Below, in pieces: positions 23,712-27,147 of a stretch of 64,000 nt of DNA. Position numbers and translations under genes: made by a program. The stretch spans positions 1-64,000 of the forward strand of contig JAUHXR010000009.1 in assembly GCA_030426845.1 (NCBI GenBank), in the 5' to 3' direction. The notes beneath the pieces are model-generated. The model worked only from the letters and a program-made list of their open reading frames with translations, was not told the origin of the DNA and searched no databases. Source of the stretch: Polyangia bacterium. Lineage in GTDB: Bacteria; Myxococcota_A; Polyangia; Polyangiales; Sandaracinaceae. Within the stretch, counting starts at the first letter, position 1. The number at the start of each line of letters is the position of its first letter.

Positions 23712-24454
23712 CAAGCCGCCCACTCCGCGAGGCGCGGCTCGTCGACGCACGGGATCTCGGTCGACGCGCTGCTCGAGACCCGCAGCGCCCGCGGTCCGGG
23801 ATCGACCGTCGTGGTCCCGCCTTGCTCGACCCGCGCGACCCGGACCGGTTCGATCCCGTTGACGGCGAGCGCCCGGACCTCCTCGGCGCACAGCGGCCCA
23901 TCGACGCGGCAGCGGAGCTGATCCCAGCTGAAGTCCACCTCCGCGTCCTCGTGGCCCGCGAGGTCGCTGACGCCCACCCGGGCGAGCAGCGGGCACTCCG
24001 GCGCCGCCGGTCCGTCGCAGAGGCTGGTGTCGCGCACGTTCAGGCCGTTCGCCGACGCGTCGGCCCAGACGTCGCGCCAGCGGCCCTCCGCGAGCTCCGT
24101 CCCCATCGCCGCCGCGGTCACGGGGTGAAGCCCCTCGACGACGAGCACGCAGCGGTTGGGCGACTCGCAGCCGACGCAGGTGTCGAGCGTGATCTCGAGG
24201 CGGTCTCCCCGCGCCTCGACGCCCTGCCAGTCTCCACGGAGCGGGCCGAGCGCGCACCCCGAGCCGACCGGTCCCTCGCGCAGCTCCACCGAGACGCGCA
24301 GGTCCACCGCCGCCCGCGCGCACGCGCCGCCGCCCGCGTCACGCACGCCCGCGTCGCGCCCGTCCCGCGCGTCCCCGTGGGACGCGTAGCAGCCGGTCAA
24401 GAGGACGCCCCCCGCGAGGAGCGCCGCGCCCGCGCGGAGGGCCGAGGTCCTCAA
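23702..24454 (-). CDS. Lipoprotein coupled to polA, unknown function
   Basis: A 250-residue lipoprotein. Its start is most likely TTG at 24454, overlapping the polA stop by 4 nt (TTGA); no ATG or GTG gives a signal peptide in this frame. The N-terminus LRTSALRAGAALLAGGVLLTGC has a clear lipobox (Cys about 22), then an Asp/Gly-rich linker GDARDGRDAGVRDAGGG. The body holds several Cys pairs, including CVGCESPNRC and CRVDGPLC, probably disulfides, and a VEGLHPVTAAAMGTELAEG stretch. No family is recognised. Its coupling to polA is positional and need not be functional. Confidence 0.75.
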   Translation of the reverse strand: MRTSALRAGAALLAGGVLLTGCYASHGDARDGRDAGVRDAGGGACARAAVDLRVSVELREGPVGSGCALGPLRGDWQGVEARGDRLEITLDTCVGCESPNRCVLVVEGLHPVTAAAMGTELAEGRWRDVWADASANGLNVRDTSLCDGPAAPECPLLARVGVSDLAGHEDAEVDFSWDQLRCRVDGPLCAEEVRALAVNGIEPVRVARVEQGGTTTVDPGPRALRVSSSASTEIPCVDEPRLAEWAAWRR

Positions 24455-27147
24455 TGCGCGTCGTTCCAGCTTCGCCCGAGCCCCACGTCCACCACGAGCG
24501 GGACGTCGAGCAGGTAGGCGCCCTCCATCTCGGAGGTCACGATCGCGCGCGCCGCGTCCGCCTCGCCCGGCGCGACCTCGAGCACGAGCTCGTCGTGGAC
24601 CGTCAGGAGCATCCGCGAGGCGCGCTCCTCGGCCTGGAGCCGCGCCGCGATCCGCACCATCGCCACCTTGATGAGATCGGCGGCCGTGCCCTGGATCGGC
24701 GTGTTGCGCGCCATGCGCTCGGCCGCGGCGCGCAGCCCGCGGTTCTTGCTGCGGATGTCCGGGATGGCCCGCCAGCGACCGAGCAGCGTCCGCACGCCGC
24801 CGCGGGTGCGGGCCTCCTCGACCACCTCCTCCATGAACCGGGCGACCCCCGCGTAGCGCTCGAAGAACGCGGCGATGTAGCGCTTGGCCTCGTCCCGCTC
24901 GATGCCGAGGTTTCGGGCGAGCGCGAACTGGGTCTGCCCGTAGATGACCGCGTAGTTCACGGTCTTGGCCTGGCCGCGCATCTCCCGCGTCACGTGGTCG
25001 ACGTCGAAGATCGCGCGGGCCGTGCGCACGTGGACGTCCTCGTCGGCGCGGAACGCGTCGATGAGCTCCGGGTCGTGCGACAGGTGGGCGAGCACCCGCA
25101 GCTCGACCTGCGAGTAGTCCGCGCTCAGGAGCTGCCAGCCATCCTGGGCGACGAACGCGTCCCGGATCGCGCGGCCCGCGTCCGTGCGGATCGGGATGTT
25201 CTGCAGGTTCGGATCGCTCGAGCTCATCCGGCCCGTCGCCGCGACCGCCTGGTTGAAGCTCGTGTGCACGCGCCCGGTGTCCGGGTCGACCTGCTGGGGC
25301 AGCGCGTCGAGGTAGGTCCCGCGCAGCTTGGTGAGCGAGCGGTGCTCGAGGATCACCCCCGGCAGCGCGTGGTGACGCGCGAGCTCCTCGAGCACCTCGT
25401 GGTCGGTGCTCCTCGCGGTCTTGGTCCGCTTGACGACCGGCAGCCCGAGCTCGTCGAAGAGCACCGCCTCGAGCGCGCGCGGCGAGTTGATCTTGAACTC
25501 GTGATTCGCGAGGACGAAGGCCCGCTTCTCGAGCGAGCGGATCCGATCGCCGTACTCGCGCGACAGCTTCGCGAGGAGCGCGGTGTCGACCTCGATCCCG
25601 CGGCGCTCCATGCGGGCGAGCTCCGCCGCGAGCGGCAGCTCCACGTCGTCGAGCAGCGGCGTGAGGCCCTGGCCCTCGAGTCGGGGCTCGATGCGCGGCT
25701 CCATCTCGAGCACCACGCTCGCGCGGCGCCCGGCGTAGGCCGCGGCCCGCTCGACCTCGACGTCGCACAGCGCGCGCCGGCGCCCGCGCTTGCGGTCGGT
25801 GAGCTGATCGTAGCCCTCGAGCTCCTGGCGCAGCTCGCTCCGCGCGACGTCCTCGAGCCCGTGCGCGTGCCGCTCCGGGTCGACCACGTAGCTCGCGAGC
25901 ATCGCGTCGAAGCGCACGTTGGCGAGCTCGACCCCGAGCCGCGCCCACACGAGCCGCTCGCGCTTGCTGTCGCCGAGCGCGAGGCGGACCTCCGGGTCGG
26001 TGAGGAGCGGCCGCAGCGCCTCCGCGACGGCCTCGCGGCTCGGCTGGCTCGGCGCGCCCAGGTAGAGGTGCCCGATCGGCGCGTAGAGCGCCTCGCCCTC
26101 GTAGGCCAGCGCGACGCCCGCGATCGGCCCCCGCCGCGCGTCGTCGCCCTCGACCAGCGCGTAGACCGCCGCCCTCCCCGCCCGGCGCGCGGCCGCGACG
26201 TGGGCCCGCAACCCGTCGAGCTCGGTGACGACCGTGACCTCCGCGAGCTCGACCGGCTCGGCCGCGATCCGGGGCAGGAGCTTGTGGAACTCGAGCTTCG
26301 TGAAGAGCGCCCGCAGCCGGGCCGGGCTCGCGCCGCCGTAGCGCACCGCCTCGACGTCGAGGGTCACCGGGGCGTCGTCGCGGAGCCGGACGAGCTCGCG
26401 CGAGAGCATCGCCTCGGCGCGCTGCTCGGCGAGCTTGGTCCGCGTGCCCTTGCGCGGGATGTCGTCGAGGTGCGCGTAGATCTCGTCGAGGGTCGGGTAG
26501 TCGGCGAGGAGCTGGGCCGCGGTCTTGGGCCCGACCGACTTCACGCCCGGCACGTTGTCGGAGCTGTCGCCGACCATCGCGAGGTAGTCCACGACCTGCG
26601 TCGGCGGCACGCCCAGCTTCACCTGGGTCTCGGCGACGCCGAAGATCCGCTCGCGCATCGTGTCGTACATGATCACGCCGTCGCCCACGAGCTGGAGCAG
26701 GTCCTTGTCGGCGGCCACGATCACCACCCGGAGCCCCGCCTCGCGGGCCTGGCGCACGAGCGTCGCGATCACGTCGTCCGCCTCGAACCCCGGCTCCATG
26801 AAGCACGGGATGTCGTAGGCCTCGATCACCTCCTCGAGCCGCTCGATCTGCGGCCGCAGATCCTCGGGGCGCTCCTTGCGGTTGGCCTTGTAGGCGTCGA
26901 AGAGCTCGTGCCGGAACGAGGGGCCGGGGGGATCGAGGGTGACCGCGAGGTAGCGGGGCCGCTGCTGGTTCACGAGCGCCAGGAGCATCTGGGTCACGCC
27001 GTAGACCGCGTGGGTGGGCTCGCCCGCGCTCGTGCTCATCGGCGGCAGCGCGTGGTAGGCGCGAAACACGTAGCCCATCAGGTCCATCACGTAGAGGACC
27101 TCCGGGTCCCCGGGCTCGGGCAGCTTCGCGGGTCGGCTCTCCTGCAT
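24451..27147 (-). CDS. polA: DNA polymerase I
   Basis: An 898-residue DNA polymerase I with an N-terminal 5'-3' exonuclease/FEN domain (about 1-290: FEADDVIATL, VVIVAADKDLLQLV, MVGDSSDNVPGVKSVGPKTA) and a C-terminal family A polymerase (about 600-898: motif A LLSADYSQVELRVLAHLS, motif B RGQAKTVNYAVIYG, motif C LLTVHDELVLEV). The middle 3'-5' exonuclease region is degenerate: the DxE of motif I and the YxxxD of motif III are not visible (for example AYALVEGDDARRG), so proofreading is probably lost, as in Taq. In motif B the residue matching E. coli Phe762 is Tyr732. It acts in Okazaki fragment maturation and repair synthesis. ATG 27147 begins MQESRPAKLPEPGD. Confidence 0.95.
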   Translation of the reverse strand: MQESRPAKLPEPGDPEVLYVMDLMGYVFRAYHALPPMSTSAGEPTHAVYGVTQMLLALVNQQRPRYLAVTLDPPGPSFRHELFDAYKANRKERPEDLRPQIERLEEVIEAYDIPCFMEPGFEADDVIATLVRQAREAGLRVVIVAADKDLLQLVGDGVIMYDTMRERIFGVAETQVKLGVPPTQVVDYLAMVGDSSDNVPGVKSVGPKTAAQLLADYPTLDEIYAHLDDIPRKGTRTKLAEQRAEAMLSRELVRLRDDAPVTLDVEAVRYGGASPARLRALFTKLEFHKLLPRIAAEPVELAEVTVVTELDGLRAHVAAARRAGRAAVYALVEGDDARRGPIAGVALAYEGEALYAPIGHLYLGAPSQPSREAVAEALRPLLTDPEVRLALGDSKRERLVWARLGVELANVRFDAMLASYVVDPERHAHGLEDVARSELRQELEGYDQLTDRKRGRRRALCDVEVERAAAYAGRRASVVLEMEPRIEPRLEGQGLTPLLDDVELPLAAELARMERRGIEVDTALLAKLSREYGDRIRSLEKRAFVLANHEFKINSPRALEAVLFDELGLPVVKRTKTARSTDHEVLEELARHHALPGVILEHRSLTKLRGTYLDALPQQVDPDTGRVHTSFNQAVAATGRMSSSDPNLQNIPIRTDAGRAIRDAFVAQDGWQLLSADYSQVELRVLAHLSHDPELIDAFRADEDVHVRTARAIFDVDHVTREMRGQAKTVNYAVIYGQTQFALARNLGIERDEAKRYIAAFFERYAGVARFMEEVVEEARTRGGVRTLLGRWRAIPDIRSKNRGLRAAAERMARNTPIQGTAADLIKVAMVRIAARLQAEERASRMLLTVHDELVLEVAPGEADAARAIVTSEMEGAYLLDVPLVVDVGLGRSWNDAH

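Follow-up and report, generated by a model that had tools for sequence, protein, structure and literature searches.

Proofreading is missing from many DNA polymerase I (Pol I) enzymes, Taq and Bst among them, and mycobacterial Pol I has lost it as well. The O helix of Bst carries Phe. Phage T7 DNA polymerase (gp5) has no 5′ nuclease domain and requires thioredoxin, and Tyr766 (E. coli numbering) is the Pol I residue associated with low fidelity. According to the available part of a 2022 paper [PMC9069017], cellular PolA proteins almost universally have Phe at the position of E. coli Phe762. This residue and its T7 counterpart, Tyr526, are named in the available text of two reviews [PMC3997047, PMC4215692] as the single determinant of discrimination against dideoxynucleotides (ddNTPs), and the same texts give a 6000-fold discrimination for wild type Taq and a 2-fold preference for ddNTPs in Taq F667Y. 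Pol I of Mycobacterium tuberculosis is entered as lacking ddNTP discrimination in a table of a further review [PMC5694481, crediting Mizrahi and Huberts 1996], cited here for that table. In the portion available of a 2026 preprint [PMC13228545], the specific activity is halved in T7 Y526F and fidelity is unchanged (p = 0.267). The introduction of that preprint gives the effect of Tyr to Phe on ddNTP discrimination as the opposite of that in the two reviews, and the reviews are followed here.

Domain architecture and active sites

The window (the whole 64,000 nucleotide stretch of DNA that was analysed, from genome G000) includes an A-type polA gene on the minus strand at 24451..27147, which is open from ATG to stop and predicts a DNA polymerase I of 898 aa scoring above the cut-offs of TIGR00593 and NF004397. 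The whole-protein score against TIGR00593 is 921.8 bits (cut-off 600), placing the protein in that family, and family A motifs A, B and C are all present. Its domains follow the usual order: 5′ nuclease, exonuclease-like, polymerase. Pfam predicts 5_3_exonuc_N and 5_3_exonuc (PF02739 and PF01367) at residues 18–272 (26332..27096, minus strand) and DNA_pol_A (PF00476, 505.9 bits) at residues 524–896 (24460..25578, minus strand), and between them a vestigial 3′-5′ exonuclease domain was identified at about residues 306–490 (25678..26232, minus strand) from alignment and from matches to PF22619 (41.6 bits) and PF01612 (31.9 bits). The protein resembles E. coli Pol I in domain order and in its polymerase and 5′ nuclease residues, and the two are 42% identical over 887 columns. 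In the alignment, all 6 of the acidic residues checked in the 5′ nuclease (equivalents of E. coli D13, D63, D115, D116, D138 and D140) are retained, as are the polymerase residues R668, R682, D705, Q708, E710, R754, K758, Y766, R841, N845, Q849, H881, D882 and E883 (E. coli numbering). As both active sites, that of the 5′ nuclease and that of the polymerase, are intact, the window gene is a complete bacterial Pol I. An AlphaFold2 model built from 19 aligned sequences has a mean pLDDT of 89.8, with the exonuclease domain also confidently modelled, and its top Foldseek matches are structures of Taq, Mycobacterium smegmatis Pol I, Bst and Klenow, with target-normalised TM-scores of ∼0.9 for the Klenow-like fragments. 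Taq and Bst are thus among the best matches in both sequence and fold.

The working DEDD exonuclease of E. coli Pol I has no equivalent in the window protein, where the carboxylates D355, E357, D424 and D501 are replaced by Y, L, E and R, respectively, and the protein does not belong to the proofreading type. With N420D also present, Tyr497 is the only one of the six exonuclease residues examined (D355, E357, N420, D424, Y497 and D501) to be retained. The alignment of this region was anchored by family f5 and part of family f7, which belong to the same order and retain the exonuclease residues. It bears out the loss of exonuclease motifs I and III proposed by the sequence-only reading and extends it, since N420D and D424E leave motif II degenerate as well. 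At the level of sequence, the alignment shows a domain that has kept its fold and in which the catalytic residues are gone. This is a common condition among the 154 aligned rows, a non-random sample, in which the exonuclease residues are lost in 119, intact in 12, intact except for Glu at D424 in 16 and unscorable in 7.

Motif B (the O helix), RGQAKTVNYAVIYG, spans residues 724–737 (24937..24978, minus strand; translation and phmmer), and Tyr732 is encoded by the TAC codon at 24952..24954 on the minus strand. In gap-free phmmer alignments, K-T-V-N-Y of the window protein is opposite K-A-I-N-F in Klenow, K-T-I-N-F in Taq and K-A-M-S-Y in M. smegmatis, and MAFFT, run on sequences of E. coli, T7 and relatives (up to 154 rows), puts Tyr732 in the same column. 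The match of the DNA pattern described below (G000:C444:24938-24966) also has AAC TAC at this site. The two alignments agree that the residue and codon had been correctly identified as the equivalent of E. coli Phe762, Taq Phe667 and T7 Tyr526. The parallel drawn earlier with mycobacterial Pol I also holds, as M. smegmatis Pol I (6vde) has Tyr in this column. Like the window protein, the M. smegmatis and M. tuberculosis enzymes are bacterial and have three domains, but they are from another phylum and the motif differs (KAMSYGLAYG in mycobacteria, KTVNYAVIYG here); Tyr was probably derived independently in the two. T7 gp5 has Tyr526 in the same column (KTFIYGFLYG) but, in the available text of one review, is a phage replicase with an active exonuclease [PMC3997047]. 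Taq differs in having Phe in the O helix and in needing the engineered F667Y substitution for ddNTP uptake, as given in parts of the two reviews [PMC3997047, PMC4215692], and E. coli Pol I differs in having Phe762.

Recurrence of Tyr at position 762

The survey used a DNA form of the pattern K-[AT]-x-[NS]-[FY]-[AG]-x-x-Y-G and a version restricted to Tyr. The full pattern matched 164 of the 183 genomes of the order, the remaining 19 being unscored, and at least some f5 genomes were missed because their motif is KTTNF. Eight of the 183 matched the Tyr version, namely the window genome, three members of the same family (G003, G005 and G008), and G016, G181, G012 and G020. In wider, overlapping sets the Tyr version matched 16 of 377 genomes drawn from the phylum and 24 of 317 from the class. 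Counting G104, which the pattern misses, the sampled genomes of the phylum that carry Tyr number 30 over all sets. A sequencing or assembly error at the Tyr732 codon would need only one base (TTC to TAC) in a draft genome, but the presence of Tyr in G003, in G005 and G008, which are almost identical to each other, and in other lineages makes this extremely improbable.

In a 92-row maximum-likelihood tree built with site 762 removed, the window genome and its three Tyr relatives form a clade of 4 (SH-aLRT 99), and the tree requires 4 changes at the site, one of them in this clade. The 154-row FastTree tree requires 8 changes, a figure that is an estimate for the sample, since the support for several forks is weak and 21 of the 30 rows with Tyr had been fetched for carrying it. 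On this tree no change is required at R668, D705, Q708, R754, K758, R841, D882 or E883, 1 or 2 are required at E710, Y766, N845, Q849 and H881, and 5 at R682. The counts themselves carry no direction, and we infer that most of the changes at 762 ran from Phe to Tyr. Tyr is recurrent and no peculiarity of the window enzyme, with 30 Tyr genomes and about 8 changes in the phylum.

Such repeated exchange among close relatives, found even inside a single genus, where G012 and G020 have Tyr and other members of g9 have Phe, would be expected if the Phe/Tyr difference were nearly neutral, with surrounding residues masking the effect of Tyr so that discrimination against ddNTPs remained high. This is unlikely. 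Tyr has been retained in the 4 genomes of the window clade, in proteins that differ from the window protein at roughly one residue in three. Further, a single residue decides discrimination in T7, E. coli and Taq as summarised in the available review text [PMC3997047, PMC4215692], and mycobacterial Pol I behaves as its Tyr predicts in the table cited above [PMC5694481]. With one residue setting discrimination in three enzymes, ddNTP tolerance of the window Pol I is a sound inference, and by analogy the enzyme is likely to be ddNTP-tolerant.

A coupling of Tyr to exonuclease loss was considered and rejected. Among the 30 Tyr rows, 21 of which came from Tyr-pattern searches, the exonuclease residues are lost in 22, intact in 3, intact except for Glu at 424 in 2 and unscored in 3. 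In the Phe rows of the 154-row alignment they are lost in 97, intact in 9, accompanied by Glu at 424 in 14 and unscored in 4. The 5 Tyr rows with intact or nearly intact residues are G117 and G366 of family f22, and G082, G127 and G436 of family f26. As Tyr is found on both exonuclease backgrounds, Tyr and proofreading loss are uncoupled. A link between Tyr and ownership of a second Pol I was also unsupported, because G012 and G020, both rated 100% complete, each have a single PF00476 match, which is of the Tyr type; Tyr therefore needs no second Pol I.

The sequence-only reading had proposed a natural error-prone enzyme. A specialised mutator or translesion Pol I would be in keeping with the absence of proofreading residues from the window protein, and with two other copies of Pol I present in the genome (see below), the window copy could be free for a special role. 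Taq and Bst likewise lack proofreading, and loss of proofreading alone would give an enzyme of their kind, not a mutator by design. The locus is conserved, the full high-fidelity active-site set is retained, and the known low-fidelity substitution at Tyr766 is absent, the corresponding residue 736 of the window protein being Tyr in the alignment. Exonuclease loss is common, Tyr is unlinked to it across the rows, and Tyr is also present in Pol Is whose exonuclease residues are intact, which leaves the term error-prone unsupported. The Tyr and Phe forms of the T7 enzyme are also equal in fidelity in the portion of the preprint cited above [PMC13228545]. A specialised error-prone role is hence very improbable.

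Inheritance and proposed role of the A-type Pol I

Near the A-type polA, in Tyr and Phe genomes alike, three genes recur among 10 loci: a glycosyltransferase-like gene (7 loci), a methyltransferase-like gene (5 loci) and ffh of the SRP (4 loci). These names were read from the translations, with no family search. The A-type genes of family f1 form one group (FastTree SH 95), and the same fork is open in the 92-row tree. Neighbours common to the Tyr and Phe A-type loci indicate that the window gene is an ortholog and not an import. Horizontal transfer of the Tyr gene was considered and is unsupported, given the neighbours shared with Phe-type relatives and the clustering of the f1 genes. Because the 538-contig draft also holds a Phe-type B copy, the assignment of the A-type as the housekeeping copy draws on synteny and breadth.

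The preferred reading, to which we assign a probability of roughly 85%, is that the window gene encodes the vertically inherited, housekeeping (A-type) Pol I of its myxobacterial family, an enzyme that has no proofreading and tolerates nucleotides lacking a 3′-OH, and in which Tyr tunes the rate. By comparison with known Pol I, the enzyme would remove RNA primers and flaps and fill gaps, both at Okazaki fragments and in repair patches, and would leave its own errors unproofread. As in T7, the hydroxyl of the O-helix Tyr would form a hydrogen bond with the beta-phosphate of the incoming nucleotide, and through this bond a missing 3′-OH would be tolerated and dNTP insertion would perhaps be somewhat faster. 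An effect on rate is possible by analogy with T7 and, second-hand, E. coli, and Tyr would probably tune rate and not fidelity. The Phe to Tyr change would have arisen in the ancestor of the window genome and its three relatives, as one of about 8 changes in the phylum.

B-type and C-type paralogs

A PF00476 search of the 538-contig draft of the window genome found three family A polymerase genes (A, B and C), none of which has the proofreading residues. The B-type gene (L033:6361-9033, contig C498; PF00476) is a second full-length Pol I with the motif GKTVNFATIYG. In the alignment its product has Phe762 and intact 5′ nuclease and polymerase sites, and the exonuclease residues are absent. Every sampled f1 genome that yielded a second complete gene is represented in the B clade, together with part of f4 and scattered members of f12, f22 and f26.

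The C-type gene (L034:2551-5133, contig C123; PF00476) predicts a third paralog of 861 aa. Full-length copies are present in 9 of the 183 genomes of the order (G000, G003, G246, G297, G298, G299, G248, G249 and G250; loci L034, L041, L227 and L234–L239), the other eight being 54–62% identical to the copy in the window genome and the next matches ∼40%. The clade they form is sister to B, has a support of 100/100 and sits on a long stem (1.49). Each of the 9 frames is open, and pairwise dN/dS (Nei-Gojobori) is 0.25 to 0.56 for 5 pairs, with dS rough in GC-rich DNA. All 9 retain D705, Q708, R754, K758, F762, R841, D882 and E883, and all 9 carry the changes E710 to Gly at the steric gate, Y766 to Ala, N845 to Arg, Q849 to Glu and D140 to Arg. 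The 5′ nuclease and exonuclease sites are lost, and the structure model (pLDDT 88.3) has a Pol I fold. No operon partner was found, as no neighbouring gene other than C itself occurs in more than 2 of the 9 loci.

The E710 site is the equivalent of Taq E615. A Taq variant with five mutations including E615G took up rNTPs, as given in part of one review [PMC4215692]. On the sequence changes, a tentative and rather doubtful proposal is that A, B and C share out the work of Pol I, with an active C-type that would accept ribonucleotides or bypass lesions; if so, the C-type would be a natural counterpart of laboratory steric-gate enzymes such as Taq E615G. The changes at Q849 and N845 may instead cripple polymerisation. 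Among the papers listed by literature searches, none dealt with paralogs of Pol I in myxobacteria.

Some further family A observations were made in the surveyed genomes. Genomes of family f16 have an additional, weaker match (∼207–216 bits) in open frames of 526–639 aa (G156:C18:9608-10486, G126:C287:49407-50285 and G121:C53:3947-4828). Six genomes that are each >90% complete (G011, G084, G091, G097, G100 and G148) have no PF00476 match, reflecting either true absence or missing contigs. One in-frame TAG lies inside the Pol I match of three f12 genomes (G208:C181:18985-21495, G207:C876:3488-6019 and G218:C199:7163-9703), where either the alignment extends beyond the start codon or the interruption is real. 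In L029 (G025) and L145 (G188) polA is split across two frames, probably by a draft-assembly frameshift.

The window enzyme is ordinary in kind and the finding is a modest one; the recurrent change at site 762 and the C paralog are more notable. The chromosomal Pol I of this phylum flips repeatedly between Phe and Tyr at 762, sometimes within one genus, and so provides natural matched pairs for the role of this residue in the cell, where ddNTPs are not expected. The phylum also supplies pairs of Pol I with and without the proofreading residues. The C-type, if active, would represent a naturally occurring family A polymerase that lacks the sugar gate.
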